Assembly: GCA_016630905.1 (NCBI GenBank) | Contig: WBMQ01000011.1 | Span: 1,426,001-1,490,000 of the forward strand | DNA length: 64,000 bases | Direction: 5' to 3' | From: Capillidium heterosporum | Lineage: Eukaryota; Entomophthoromycota; Entomophthoromycetes; Entomophthorales; Capillidiaceae | Shown: one piece after another, positions 11,660 through 61,525 of the stretch | How the letters are laid out: each line of letters begins with the position of its first letter | Numbering within the stretch: position 1 is the first letter of the stretch | Translations under genes and position numbers: made by a program | Notes under the pieces: model-generated | Told to the model about the DNA's origin: nothing | What the model saw: only the letters and a program-made list of their open reading frames with translations | Database searches by the model: none

Positions 11660-13088
<1,429 letters not shown>

Positions 13089-36110: not shown

Positions 36111-38985
36111 ATGCCAGTTGAACTACCAAAGGAAAACATCTACCAAGAGTCGGCTGATACGTCTTTCGAGCTCTACGTCAATGGTATATAGAAAAACTAT
36201 ATTTCAATCAAGCAGTTCTAATTATCGATTAAATAGAGTTCAAAAAGGTAGGTCAAGATCCAACTCATTTAGTCTTCCTAATCCATGGTAACTTTTTTCT
36301 CCTAATTTACATTTTAAATATTTGATATAATGTAGGTATCGGCTATAAGATGTTTGAAGATACCAAGTTTCTACACAACAGTATGCTTTTTATTAGTTTT
36401 ATTTTCTAAGAGTTTTTGATTAGTGTTCACATTAAGTAATACGACTCAAGAAGTACTATTTTCCAAATATAAGGATTCGGGGATGAGGAATATTCTATAT
36501 GCCAATATGTAAGCTACATTTCCTATTCAATATATTAAATGGAGCATATTGTTGTAGCTTGGGCCGCCGAATTCCACGCCCTTACCACCGTTGATGGGTA
36601 TATTTATAAATTACACTTGCAACTAACCTATATTTAGGCGGATGTCCAAAATAACTTTACCTACCATACCTGGTATGCGCGTCATAACGAATGATTGTCT
36701 GTCCGATGTCCTATACTACTTCACCGATTTCCACCGTCAGCAACTTTTAGATATTATTTGCACCAAGATGAACGAGGCCTTTAGTAAGTTTAAGGATGTA
36801 TACCCCGAATTCGACGGCCATGTCGGTCTATTTTCGCACTCCTTAGGGGGTGTCATAAGCTACGACCTGCTGACGGTCAAGAACCAGGAGAGTAGTAGTT
36901 CTGACTGTCTTTATTCAGTCGCCTTCCCAAGGACGAATTACCCCAAGTTGAATTTCAAGCCGAGCTTCCTGTTTACAACAGGGAGTCCGATCGGCGCGGT
37001 AATGGTTATGCGTGGACTCAAGTACGAAGACTTTTGCCTGTCCGAGGATATCAAGTTTATGAATTTTTTCAATCGTAAGTTGTATATTACTTTGCATTAC
37101 TAAACCTTTGCTTTATGGGAAATAGCTTATGATCCTTTGGTAATCTTTTGACTTTATTTTTTATTAACATTGATATAGGCTTATCGTATCGAACCATTGA
37201 TCGATCCTAAATATGAGGGATTGGACCCATATATTATAGAGCCCTTTGAGACTAAAGAGTCGTCGTCCTACCTACCTAGTCTGACCTCACTAATCCCCGA
37301 ACGAATGCCGCTATTTAAGGCTGCTCGCAACGTTTTAGCTACATTAAACATCGTCGAATCGGAGGCTGAGGGAATGGACGACGAGCTGTCGTCTCAGTGC
37401 GAAAGTGTCGAAGAGGAGTTGACAATGTACGAATCTCCGTTGTTAGATTTGAAGGCAGTCGATGAAGATAATTTGAGCACACGTCGGCTGTCAGGTTTCC
37501 ACGCTACTGCTGTTGGTTTGTCTTCCTTCAAGAATGAAAGTATAATTGAGAGATTACATAACATTACCTACCGAGCTAAAAAGAATGATGGAGATAATGA
37601 TTCAACTGTGGCCAAATCACGACCAACTTCGCTATACCAGTCAGCTATTGAAACTTTCTACGCGCCCAAACGACCCCCAACCAAGAATGGGACTCCCAAA
37701 AAGAAGACGATGCGATCTACCACTGTACCCAACCTACCCAACTATGCCGGACAAACCAACACTAACTCTAATACAGCAGTTGGCAGTAAAGAAAATTCGC
37801 GCAAAATGTCAGCAAGCTCAATTAAGTTTAGCTGTGGTGGCAACTCGGGTAATGAATCGGATGACGAGCGTAGTGTAATAGCCGAACCAACATCCACCAC
37901 CACCGAATTTCCTCCAAACCTTACAAGTGAGAGGAAGGGACATAACCCCATGATACGGAGGAATACTGAGCCACTACCCTCACAGCTACCCTTACCTCCC
38001 TCGGAGGGCTGGGCCTATCTCACTCGAAGTATGTTAGAAGTCGGTACAACTGACAAGGTGGAATGGCTCCTCAATGGTGTCGGCATCATCGACGAAGCTG
38101 ATCTCCAGAAAATCAAGCGATCACCCAGTTTCCGTCACCTCAGCGGCAACGACTCCTTCAACACCTTTATGGATGTCGATGACTCGCCAGTACCTGCTCG
38201 GAGGCAGCTGGCTGCCAGCTCAAACTCCAACCTACCTTACCCGAATAAGCGGCATTCGACTTGTCCCAAACTGATATCAAAACTGACTTATAACGTCGAC
38301 CAGTTTGCTACTGTCTCTATAACTAACAACGATCCTCTCATTATCCAACCACCTGGAAGAGCAAGCTCTCCCACCACGATCCCCATGCTGACCAAGAAGG
38401 GGAGTACCCATTCGGTACCTTTCGTCCGCCACACCGGCAATAATGCCGTCCAGGATGTCCTCCTTCTCGAGGAAGTGAATTTGAAGACCTTGGATTCTAA
38501 TGCCAAATACCCGCCCAATTCAGAATCCTTACAATCGACTGCGACCACTACCAGTGCTACAGCTGCAGCCGATACTTCTAACCTGATGCGTTACGACTAC
38601 GCCATTCAGGCCAGCGTCATGTCCAATCTTAGCTTCGAATATTTAGCCGGTTTGGGAGCCCACTTTTGCTACTGGTAAGACCTTGGCTTTTCTATATCTG
38701 CTAATTTTTTACAATAGGGAGAGTAAAGATGTCGTCAACCTAATGCTGAAGACTTTGTTCCAACAGATCCGTCCACCTACCCCACCCCCTTCTCCCATCC
38801 CTTCACCTCTACCTTCATCTCTATCCAAATCCTTGTCCAAGACCCCACTAGCATCTTCGTTGAAGAATCGAATGAGTATGGTCAAATATCCTACCATTCG
38901 CAAGGTGGAGTCCTGCCCTTCGGTGCCTAAGTTGAGTAAGGAGGAGGTTGATGGATTACCACTAGCATCAGCACCGGTTCAGTAA
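36111..38985 (+). CDS. DDHD-domain phospholipase (PA-PLA1 family), one apparent +1 frameshift
   Basis: Nine exons: 36111-36183, 36237-36287, 36336-36380, 36424-36508, 36558-36597, 36638-37074, 37126-37139 (14 nt), 37179-38674, 38718-38985. HLVFLIHGIG opens the lipase fold. The nucleophile elbow is SHSLGGVISYD (exon 6), where the family usually has GHSLG. The DDHD core begins FFNPYDPLAYRIEPLI and ends with DYAIQ...FEYLAGLGAHFCYWESKDV, which contains DDHD acidic and His positions. Between them is a Ser/Pro-rich low-complexity insert of about 400 residues. In exon 4 the frame before 36487 (YKDSGM) and after it (FYMPISWAAEFHAL) differ by one base; AGG to AG restores the conserved P-x-x-W. Corrected length 835. 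These enzymes hydrolyse phosphatidic acid at ER-Golgi membranes. A Pro-rich tail follows. Confidence 0.88.
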
Positions 38986-56733: not shown

Positions 56734-58876
56734 TTATTGCTGTAACTCGACGTAATTTGCTAGAAAAAGAAAGAAAAGTTAGTCCACCCATTATTAAAAA
56801 TAGCAAAAAAGTACCTGGGAAGAGTCCTTGTTCACCATTAGGATTAGTACCCGACCACCAGTCATCGGAAATAAACTCCAAGTTGGTAATCAAATCAGCA
56901 GCTGCAAAGGTCAGTTCCCCTTCCTCGGTAGCTTCGTAGTCGTAAAGAGCGATGGCGTGGGCCTAACATATAGAAAGATTAATAAATGAAATTTTAAATA
57001 GCTGCGGTACCGTATCGTTAGGTAGATCGGCATGAGTCTCCTGGACATGCTCAGGTTCTGCTTCGATGGGAGCCGGAGCTGAGGCAGCAGCCGGTACAAC
57101 TTCGACGTAATTCGCTGGGAAGACACCAGTTATGCCCGACTCAGTAGTACCTTGCCACCACCCCTCGTCCAACTGTTCGATGTTGATAATGAGCTCACCC
57201 TCACGTAGGTCAACTTCACCTTCATCAGCAGCTTGGTATTCGAATAATGCGATGGCGTTGATGCCGCTACCTGATGCTGCAGCGTCGACGGTAGCATCAG
57301 TATCGGGGTTATAGCTAAGTTGCTGGGCTTCGCGGGCGGCAATTTCAAACAGGTGGGCCTCTTCAGCCTTGCGCTCTTCTTCTTGGATGCGGTGAGCTTC
57401 AGCTTCGGCCTCAGCCTCTTGCTTCAGACGCTGCTCTTCCTTTGATACGGTCCTGTTCAGCCTTCTGCTCTTCTTGGTATCTATGCTCCTTTTCAGCACG
57501 AGCTTCTTCTTCCTGGCGGTGTCTTTCGGCAGCAGCTTTTTCTTCTTGGGCCTGTCGCTCTTCCTCAAGTCTAGCCTGCTGCTGAGCTTCAAACTCTTTT
57601 TGACGTTGCAATTCATCAGCTTCTTGGCGTCTACGTTCGGCTTCAGCTTCAGCTGCCTCCTCTCTCCTACGTCTATCTTCCTCCTCTCGTTTACGGATGT
57701 TCTCTTGTTCTCTCTGTCTGTTCGCTTCTTCAGCTTGAGCCCGTTGTTTAGCTTCCGAGTCAAAGTCGGTACTACCACCTTGCTGACGGCTAGCCCGAGC
57801 TTTCTCCTGTTGGGCTCGCAGCATCCTCTCTTCACGTTCTAAAGCCTCGTTGTTGGTTCGGCGCGCTCCACCGTAGCTGGGTTGTGAAGTACTGCCACCA
57901 ATGTTGGCCTTCTCACGGAATTGCCTTTCAAACTGCTCCTGCTCCTCACGTTCCTGTCTTTCTTTATCTTCACGTTCCTGCCTTTCCTTGTCAGACTGTT
58001 CGACTTGTTCCAAGAATCGATTCTGAAGCTTACTTGAGGTAGAAGCTATGACGGTAGGCTGTTTCTAATAAAAGGTTACCGTCTTGATTTTATAAAACTA
58101 CTTACGGGAAGAGCTGGTGGTGCACTGGGTTTAGAGGTTTGAGACACAGAACGTGTGTAGTCACTTGTAGTCGAAACCGGAGCTCTGGCTGGAGTCTTAT
58201 ATATAATTAGATTTTAAATTTGAAAAAATAGCTACTGGAGGCTTCTGAGCAAACTTATTTGGACGTGTTTGCTCCTGGTAAGAATATTTGGCTCCGGAGC
58301 TTTCATCTAGTTTCTTCATAATTTGTTCGGGGGTTACATCTTCCTATATACTAATTAGAAAAGCTATTACGATATAATGTACCTGATCACGGCCGTTAAT
58401 TTGAATATGGTATCCCTAATGTGGATTTAAAGTTAGGAACAACACAAAGTAGCTCAGTTACCTTTAAGAAATTTTGTACATCAGCCAAGTGGTTTCCCAA
58501 AAGGCCTTTTCTTTTGACAGGTGCACTTTCACCGCACTAAATGCACGTTAGCTTACCATAATGTAAAAAAATACCCATGAAATAAATATAAATTTAGGTA
58601 GTTGCGTATTAGGGTCTTCAACTCTAGCGAAGGCGAATAGGACTTTGTCATCTTCGAACTCTTCAACCAATTCATCGAGATCACCATCTTGAAATAGAAT
58701 ATTAATTAAAAAAGTAAAATGTTCTATTTACCTCCTTGACCAGCAACCTTGAGATCGTTTGTACCTTTGTCGTATCCCAAGACTATCCAATTGCATGGGT
58801 CATTTTGGTCTAAGACCGACTTGTAAGCTGCTTTGAGCTCAGTACCGTGGGTTGCCAGATTAACTTCTACTACCAT
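56734..58876 (-). CDS. ABP1: Actin-binding protein 1 (drebrin-like): ADF-H, charged coiled coil, two SH3 domains; one apparent +1 frameshift
   Basis: Nine exons: 58732-58876, 58575-58687, 58462-58536, 58383-58415, 58236-58343, 58106-58195, 57011-58064, 56815-56962, 56734-56759. ADF-H domain at 1-135 (VNLATHGTELKAAY, NWIVLGYDKG, SWCGESAPVKRKG, GYHIQINGRDQEDV). Then a Pro/Ser segment and about 200 residues of Glu/Arg/Gln coiled coil. SH3-1 (ALFEYQAADEGEVDLREGE, WWQGTTESGITGVFPANYVE) and SH3-2 (ALYDYEATEEGELTF, WWSGTNPNGEQGLFP), ending ANYVELQQ across the last intron. Within the coiled coil the frame slips by one at 57439-57440: DRIK then EEQRLKQEAEAEA is recovered if AAAGGAAG were AAAGAAG. Corrected length 596. 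ABP1 links cortical actin to endocytosis and Arp2/3. It sits 0.9 kb from coronin, another actin regulator. Confidence 0.93.
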
Positions 58877-59780: not shown

Positions 59781-61525
59781 CTAACTCTTGACGTTCAACC
59801 GCTCCAATTCCAACTCCAGCATGCGGATCTTACTGTCCTTGGTATCGACCTGATTTTTCAAGTGGTCAAACTCCAACTTTAATTTCTCGTAAGCTTCCTT
59901 GTACTGCAATTTCAAATTAGTTAGTATAAAACCAAAAACAAATATATATAATCTCAACTTACGTCTAGTTCAGTAGCCTGCTCGGGAAGCTTAGTTTCAC
60001 TAGCGGGTGCCACATTGGGGACAAATTCTTTCTTAGCGGTAGGTTGGAACCCATTTTCTAAACTGATGAGGATGGGGTCGGCTGATTTACCACTAAAGTA
60101 TTCTTCGGCTGTCAAGGCCGGTTCAGCACCAGGCGTATCAGGGTAAATTTCACTTTGGAAAGTCTCGGCCTGTAAGTGTTAGTTTACGTTGTAGATATAA
60201 ATATTACTTTACGGGGGACTTTGAACGATACCGGTTCAACGGAAGAGTTACCGAGGACGCGATAAGCTCGAGCGATCTCACATTCCATGACGTTGAGGGC
60301 ACGCTTGGGTATGAAACCGATACCACGTTGAGGGTCGGTCGACTGGAAGGCTGACAAGTAATGCAAATCGTCGTTCTCGTACTCGTAGTAGCGGATCAAT
60401 CCGTCACTTTAGGTTGGCATATAATTAGTATCAATGGTTATATAAGTTTAATTTTACCCCTAAAATGAAGTTAGGTTAAAATTGTATCTACATTTTAAAT
60501 TTACCTTTCCGGCGATGTAAAGAAGGTTAATGTCTGCATCGTAATGGGGTACTAAGACACCCGATGAGGTATCGACGTCAATCTGTTTGATAGGGCTGCT
60601 CAAGTCGGTAGAGTTCCAGATCGAAATCTGTCTATCGCTAGTTCTAGAGAATCCAGTAGTTATGATACGGTCTGAATTTCCTAACCAGCAGATTCGCGAT
60701 GCCTTTAGACCTTGATGTCCGTTTCCTTCCTACAGATTGTTTGAGATCTAAATATCAATGTCGAAATGGATACTTGAATGATCTGATTGGAACGGGCATC
60801 AAAGACACGGATCTTCTTGTCACGGCAGGTAGTAGCAATTAGGTTACCATTATAGTTCCAAACCATCGATTGGATGACGTCGCCAAACCCAGTCAGCTGT
60901 TGCTTTTCAATACCAGCCTCAATATCCCACAATCGAACGGTGGCGTCAGCGCTGGAACTAGCCAAAACGTTGTCGGCACTAGGGTGGAACAAAACTGAAC
61001 CTACTTTTCTAAAAAACTTGTTAAAATTCGATATGTGGAAAGTAATACTTTGAGTGGCCATGTAAAGTTACGGCTGGGTTCTCGATGTTTTCTTCAGGCA
61101 GTTCGTCTGGAATAGTCCAGATCATTACTTTACCGTCTTCGGCACAGGAAGCTATGACATGATCGTTGAAGTTGGCAAAGTCGGTGTCAAGCACTGGTGC
61201 TGAGTGGCCGACGAAGAGGGGGAAGTTACCGGGTAAGCGACCTGCGAATAAAGGATGAATATAGGTTAGCTGTGTTATCTAAAGTACCTTGTTGCTCCAA
61301 GGGAATTACTGCAAAGGCACCGCCACCAATGTTCCAGTTCACCGAAATGTAAAGCTATTGCAATGGTTTAGCAAATAAAAATAAACCAATTCTTACTGGG
61401 TTAGCTTTTACGATGTTGCTGTCCCAAGCGTTAGGGGATATCCTCAGGTCTTCGTAACATCCTTCTTTTCGATTGGCAGTGCCAAACACATGGCGATACT
61501 TGGAGCTTCGTACAAATCTTGACAT
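59781..61525 (-). CDS. CRN1: Coronin, with a 2-nt exon
   Basis: Exons: 61397-61525, 61288-61354, 61049-61241, 60774-61008, 60505-60729, 60458-60459, 60208-60406, 59963-60169, 59781-59903, giving 459 residues. Start MSRFVRSSKYRHVFG is the classic coronin N-terminus. WD repeats: ISPNAWDSN, GHSAPVLDTDF, VMIWTIPD, VGSVLFHPSADNVLASSSADATVRLWDI, RVFDARS, ISIWNS. Then KGDGLIRYYEY, GIGFIPKRALNVMECEIARAYR, SFKVPRK and IYPDTPG, followed by a C-terminal coiled coil (LKLEFDHLKNQVDTKDSKIRMLELELERL). Between exons 5 and 7 two introns (45 and 51 bp) flank the dinucleotide GG, which alone gives in-frame AGKGDGLIRYYE. Coronin binds F-actin and regulates Arp2/3 at the cortex. The unique region between propeller and coiled coil is short. 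Confidence 0.95.
60458..60459 (-). other. CRN1: 2-nt microexon (GG) of coronin
   Basis: On the minus strand exon 5 ends GGAAAG before donor GTAAAT (60504). The intron ends CTAACTTCATTTTAG at 60460; then GG; then donor GTAAAA (60457) and an intron ending CAACCTAAAG at 60407 before TGACGG. Splicing joins AAG-GG-T-GAC, coding K-G-D. Confidence 0.75.

Follow-up and report, generated by a model that had tools for sequence, protein, structure and literature searches.

A probable two-nucleotide exon in the coronin gene of Capillidium heterosporum

The gene of Capillidium heterosporum for coronin, an actin-binding protein, raises the question of how a reading frame is carried across 98 nt in which one intron appears to end, and another to begin, with only the bases GG between them. 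A sequence-only reading of the 64,000-nt stretch of DNA analysed here (the window) had proposed that these two bases constitute an exon. Exons of 1-3 nt test how the spliceosome locates its sites. In land plants, conserved 1-nt exons of APC11 and VPS55 have been confirmed by RNA-seq and RT-PCR and are absent from annotations (PMC8831610, PMC4674806); for the Arabidopsis 1-nt exon, the authors of PMC4674806 propose intron definition with consecutive removal of the introns. Functional microexons had not previously been described in filamentous fungi, according to PMC11121469. In the literature searched (many subscription journals lie outside its coverage), we found no earlier report of a microexon in coronin or of a 2-nt exon, and no title in the arbuscular mycorrhizal literature searched concerns fungal microexons.

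The coronin gene and the signals around GG

The coronin coding region is predicted to consist of exons of 129, 67, 193, 235, 225, 2, 199, 207 and 123 nt separated by introns of 42, 46, 40, 44, 45, 51, 38 and 59 nt (both in order; Table 1). Spliced, it comes to 1380 nt, the length that the sequence-only reading had given with GG included, and contains no internal stop codon. The predicted protein has the parts by which coronins are recognised, namely an N-terminal DUF1899 domain (Pfam score 100.1 bits, cut-off 20.7), a WD40 propeller (81.3, cut-off 27) and a coronin-type WD40_4 repeat (69.5, cut-off 27), and its top match among solved structures is Coronin-6 (E 5e-123, residues 3-398 covered). 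No second copy of coronin was found in the searched 29.5-Mb genome. (Note that the gene beside coronin, at 56734-58876 on the minus strand, has the look of an actin regulator, with a cofilin-type start, a charged middle and two SH3-like ends; judged by eye, it resembles Abp1.)

Table 1. Predicted features of the coronin gene around the putative 2-nt exon (positions in the window)
Feature	Position	Strand	Description	Basis
Coronin coding region	59781..61525	-	nine exons, 459 aa	spliced sequence, gene finder, Pfam, solved coronins
Exon 5	60505..60729	-	225 nt; 3' end ATC GCC GGA AAG	spliced sequence, gene finder
Intron 5	60460..60504	-	45 nt, phase 0, after Lys283 codon; GTAAAT...CCTAAC...TTTTAG	signal percentiles
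Exon 6	60458..60459	-	GG, codon positions 1 and 2 of Gly284 (GG/T)	sequence, enumeration, gene finder
Intron 6	60407..60457	-	51 nt, phase 2; GTAAAA...ACTAAT...CTAAAG	signal percentiles
Exon 7	60208..60406	-	199 nt; start T GAC GGA TTG, opening TGACGGATTG	spliced sequence, gene finder
Cryptic acceptor	60382 (last base)	-	CTACTACGAG; would remove GDGLIRYYE	gene finder's choice once the 2-nt exon is forbidden

The sequence bears out that GG directly follows an intron end, TTTTAG, and directly precedes a donor, GTAAAA. Thus a complete acceptor and a complete donor flank these two bases (TTTTAG-GG-GTAAAA), as in an ultra-short microexon of 1-3 nt, and the bases are needed both for the reading frame and for the conserved protein. 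The donor and acceptor of intron 5 are strong (percentiles 0.95 and 0.80 when compared to the 60 introns predicted in the window outside coronin). The acceptor of intron 6, CTAAAG, is weak (0.03), the donor and branch site of that intron being at 0.48 and 0.62. Summed over its signals, intron 5 is at percentile 0.90 and intron 6 at 0.22, and the 98 nt taken as a single intron are at 0.40, above intron 6 alone. The loss of a glycine and of the frame had been given as the cost of dropping GG, and the cost is in fact greater: joining 60505 directly to 60406 produces the codons AAG TGA, that is, a stop.

With lengths of 45 and 51 nt, introns 5 and 6 are typical of the genome, the median being 48 nt among the 60 window introns and 44 nt among 118 introns predicted in a 200-kb sample from elsewhere. 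If all 98 nt formed one intron, its length would be unusual, as had been argued; this length is at percentile 0.97 in the window, and introns of at least 98 nt number 2 of the 60 and 3 of the 118. One of the two in the window was rejected as an artefact of the gene finder, since it covers an exon of a kinase gene that seems to be frameshifted. (The kinase gene, CDK5/Pho85-like and located at 11660-12942 on the plus strand, has one conserved exon with a one-base frameshift against the family, which is either an assembly error or a real lesion and was masked by a false 113-nt intron.) Among the 86 internal exons of the 200-kb sample none of 5 nt or less was predicted. Two predicted internal exons of that sample are candidates for further microexons of 10-11 nt, one of 11 nt in L013 (9057-9979, minus strand) and one of 10 nt in L016 (1536-3780, plus strand). 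In the window a lipase-like gene (36539-38930) was predicted to have a 5-nt exon close to its end, at 38718-38722 (plus strand), which is probably noise of the gene finder.

Alternative ways of splicing the interval

We enumerated every excision of one (58 cases) or two (1007 cases, nested ones included) GT/GC-AG stretches 25 nt or longer within the 98 nt plus 60 nt upstream and 60 nt downstream. Of the 32 distinct products that are in frame and free of stops, only one keeps the conserved coronin block AGKGDGLIRYYE that GG had been said to restore, and it is the product from which both introns around GG are excised, in either order. The shorter segment GDGLIRYYE is kept in five products; these differ in their upstream donors, and all five contain the GG exon.

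A Viterbi gene finder that combines codon scores, matrices for donors, acceptors and branch sites, and a length term was applied with no protein evidence. For the first round it was seeded with the remaining six introns of coronin and with consensus motifs, whereas later rounds were retrained on predicted window introns with those of coronin excluded. (Note that the codon table, derived from long open reading frames in the window, may contain coronin codons, and that a first run, in which the cost of an intron was too low, gave a degenerate result of 1632 to 1992 introns; it was discarded, and the cost was then taken from rough priors.) The gene finder returned the nine-exon coronin with the 2-nt exon included. 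Forbidding that exon lowered the score by 9.25 nats, a difference that is indicative because the costs were set by hand after the degenerate first run, and the best substitute used the acceptor at 60382, with deletion of GDGLIRYYE. Moreover, in 100,000 shuffles of the 98 nt that preserved the dinucleotides and both ends, a frame-restoring internal exon of 2, 5, 8, 11 or 14 nt arose in 5401, an in-frame 2-nt exon between AG and GT in 1718, and a GG exon in 890. None of the 100,000 attained the four observed scores together (donor, acceptor and the two branch sites), in a test that is post hoc because its thresholds are the observed values.

The enumeration, the gene finder, the shuffles and the 136 homologous proteins described below all support the interpretation of GG as an exon. 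Two full sets of intron signals lie exactly two bases apart, and an intact coronin is obtained only with both introns out and GG kept. The coronin pre-mRNA very probably carries a constitutive 2-nt exon, GG, between two short introns.

Three other accounts of this interval deserve consideration. If the 98 nt were one intron and the assembly were missing two bases from a run of G at an exon border, the need for GG would be only apparent. The frameshifted kinase indicates that assembly indels may occur in this window, and the signals of the 98 nt as one intron are ordinary; however, a perfect intron end and a donor two bases apart would then be a coincidence, which no shuffle reproduced, the intron would be among the longest, and the coronin models of related fungi are disrupted at this residue too, so that we consider such a loss of bases highly unlikely. 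A shade less likely again is the use by the mRNA of the acceptor at 60382, which would give AGK-YENDD and a coronin nine residues shorter. That product is in frame, is the gene finder's first choice when the 2-nt exon is disallowed, and has a counterpart in the annotated Massospora protein, which carries the same nine-residue gap. Yet it scores lower by the 9.25 nats given above, and the segment it loses includes D285 and E292, each of which is present in 119 of the best 120 homologs of the window coronin (G284 is present in 110) and belongs to a block that the transcript-like proteins P0001 and P0002 retain. Least probable of all, to the point of being hardly credible, is a stwintron, an arrangement in which one intron sits inside a splice signal of another and the excision of both leaves no exon base between. 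Stwintrons are known from ascomycetes, and the two introns considered here are likewise neighbours, but each of them has complete signals of its own, and among the 1007 double excisions, nested ones included, none without GG keeps GDGLIRYYE.

Residue 284 in coronins of other fungi

The best 120 matches of each of three protein searches yielded 136 different proteins, all of which were aligned. We refer to 20 of these as transcript-like, as 19 were found only on contigs 1.4-2.8 kb long that carry a single unbroken frame and one comes from a transcriptome; they appear to derive from RNA. Among the matches listed, AGKGDG is found in all 20 transcript-like proteins, and the 116 genome-annotated homologs comprise 96 with AGKGDG, 3 with AGKGDR, 1 with SGKGDG and 16 that are broken at the G. 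Every one of the 11 Glomeromycota genome models among those matches is broken at residue 284: Diversispora epigaea and D. eburnea read AGKVDG, Glomus cerebriforme AGKSDG, Gigaspora margarita (P0074) and Acaulospora colombiana IL and then DG, Ambispora gerdemannii AGKVIENNLDG, Paraglomus occultum (P0117) and P. brasilianum AGKVVFW...DG, Funneliformis geosporum AGK and then YKSSEPQ, F. caledonium AGKGSVKDVLKTDG, and Geosiphon pyriformis AGK and then SSEPQ. Also broken are the models of Piptocephalis tieghemiana (AGKAKSDG), two Syncephalis (LADG and AGKFIDG), Massospora cicadina (P0107; AGK and then FEAGE) and the chytrid Phlyctochytrium arcticum (P0076; AGKVMSACQSVALIYFNNAVQGDG). (NCBI lineages were checked for Geosiphon, Paraglomus occultum, Massospora, Syncephalis and Phlyctochytrium; we take Diversispora, Glomus, Gigaspora, Acaulospora, Ambispora, P. 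brasilianum and Funneliformis to belong to Glomeromycota and, likewise by assumption, Piptocephalis tieghemiana to belong to the early-diverging fungi.)

In a control over 180 sites in conserved neighbourhoods, indel cases numbered 10 at residue 284 and 7 at residue 283, and at most 3 at each other site except residue 52, where the window coronin is itself short of one residue. One comparison bears on the position of the intron border. The Gigaspora margarita model P0074 (456 aa) differs from the transcript-like protein P0019 (462 aa) solely in the absence of YVAGKG, and a join with a GT donor fits only if the donor lies inside the Leu-Tyr codons and the next exon starts one base before the Asp codon. 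A phase-2 intron would therefore end just before the Asp codon, as in the window coronin. Note that GG at the end of the upstream exon would have permitted an ordinary single intron. In the Massospora model the nine residues that are absent (GDGNVRYYE or similar) occupy the same positions as those that the window coronin loses once the 2-nt exon is forbidden; the model is poor in general, because about 22 residues are missing elsewhere too. The Phlyctochytrium model carries an insert of 18 residues, V first and Q last, followed by GDG, which looks like one retained 54-nt intron and would be evidence for a phase-0 intron at the Lys/Gly (K/G) border. As apparent plain intron retention it was rejected as a microexon case, though it is counted within the 16 broken models. 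We also dropped, as too weak, an argument that the residue before DG in broken models can always be encoded as NNT. In P0117, DG is preceded by additional residues, ...HSNPFSS, that may represent translation of an intron's 3' end (CTAAC, a T-rich stretch, TAG), and this putative end would fall one base before the Asp codon.

A quick tree was built from 85 of 137 coronin sequences, 52 near-redundant ones being omitted. The window coronin groups with P0001, P0002 and Massospora (SH-aLRT 100), which points to a probable place in Entomophthoromycota, and the AGKGDG block is kept in P0001 and P0002, both transcript-like and its nearest kin. The broken or intact label requires 6 changes on the tree. 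Basidiobolus, Piptocephalis cylindrospora and Thamnocephalis are annotated intact, yet they stand among the broken ones; either the introns have been lost there or the annotation is right. Scans of other collections for fungal coronin DNA gave 88 (pattern matches), 8 and 31 matches, none from a relative, and the 28 loci found in a further scan at 22-36% identity all bear bacterial or archaeal titles and were taken as generic WD40.

These proteins suggest that the 2-nt exon is probably common to distant fungi, and we incline to the view that it was in place before Entomophthoromycota, Zoopagomycota and Glomeromycota diverged and has been retained from then on. It is conceivable, if rather doubtful, that the exon is real but recent and private to this lineage, with the garbled models elsewhere having other causes, for example a single awkward intron. 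Compatible with a private exon are the facts that the other species were compared by proteins, not genes, that P0076 looks like retention of one intron, that P0107 is defective at a second place, and that the three intact annotations just named exist. The 11 Glomeromycota models listed, however, all fail at the same residue while other conserved sites are nearly clean, the Gigaspora pair points to a phase-2 border before the Asp codon that was left unjoined to AAG, and the Massospora loss is the very artefact that was produced here by forbidding the exon.

Proposed splicing of the probable 2-nt exon and its kinship with known systems

Both introns around GG would be ordinary introns of the major spliceosome type, with donor and acceptor paired across each short intron (intron definition). 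Because two bases cannot be defined as a unit, the introns would be recognised separately, and since two complexes would not fit on two bases simultaneously, they would be removed in succession. Either order may be possible, since AGGG precedes the second donor both before the first excision (TAG+GG) and after it (AAG+GG). Exon skipping would place UGA directly after Lys283, giving a truncated protein, and the mRNA would probably be marked for decay. From the garbled annotations, we infer that other early-diverging fungi share this arrangement, with one intron of phase 0 following the Lys codon and another, of phase 2, preceding the third base of the Gly codon, which argues that the arrangement is old. 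If the exon is indeed ancient, it would be held in place by the instant UGA stop that follows from skipping, and the phase-0 intron may be older still, given the 54-nt-like insert at the same K/G border in Phlyctochytrium arcticum.

The closest kin of the GG exon appear to be the plant 1-nt exons of APC11 and VPS55 (PMC4674806, PMC8831610), which are likewise ultra-short constitutive exons between two introns that annotations missed and for which intron definition with consecutive removal is proposed; they are conserved across species, as the coronin exon probably is. They differ from the coronin exon in having one base rather than two and in belonging to plants rather than fungi, and they were confirmed by RT-PCR and RNA-seq, where the coronin exon is predicted from sequence. 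The microexon of Trichoderma Xlr2 (PMC11121469) is also a functional microexon of a filamentous fungus, but it is regulated by glucose and switches between protein forms, whereas the coronin GG must stay in every functional mRNA. Ascomycete stwintrons (PMC6616335 and others) also involve two close, short fungal introns that require consecutive splicing; unlike the coronin introns, which are both complete and leave two coding bases, a stwintron leaves none.

The coronin GG exon is unusual for a fungus and is probably old. In a compact fungal genome whose introns measure about 45 nt, this natural and probably constitutive exon would offer a simple system for studying splice-site recognition. With the same junction garbled in many other early-diverging fungi, the exon is probably a conserved feature rather than a peculiarity of a single gene, and the coronin models of all 11 listed Glomeromycota and of some other early-diverging fungi appear to be wrong at one residue, probably because gene finders disallow such exons. 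A search for conserved proteins that are broken at one residue in genome models and intact in transcripts could reveal more exons of this kind. If the exon is as ancient as the proteins suggest, it would be among the oldest and shortest constitutive exons known.
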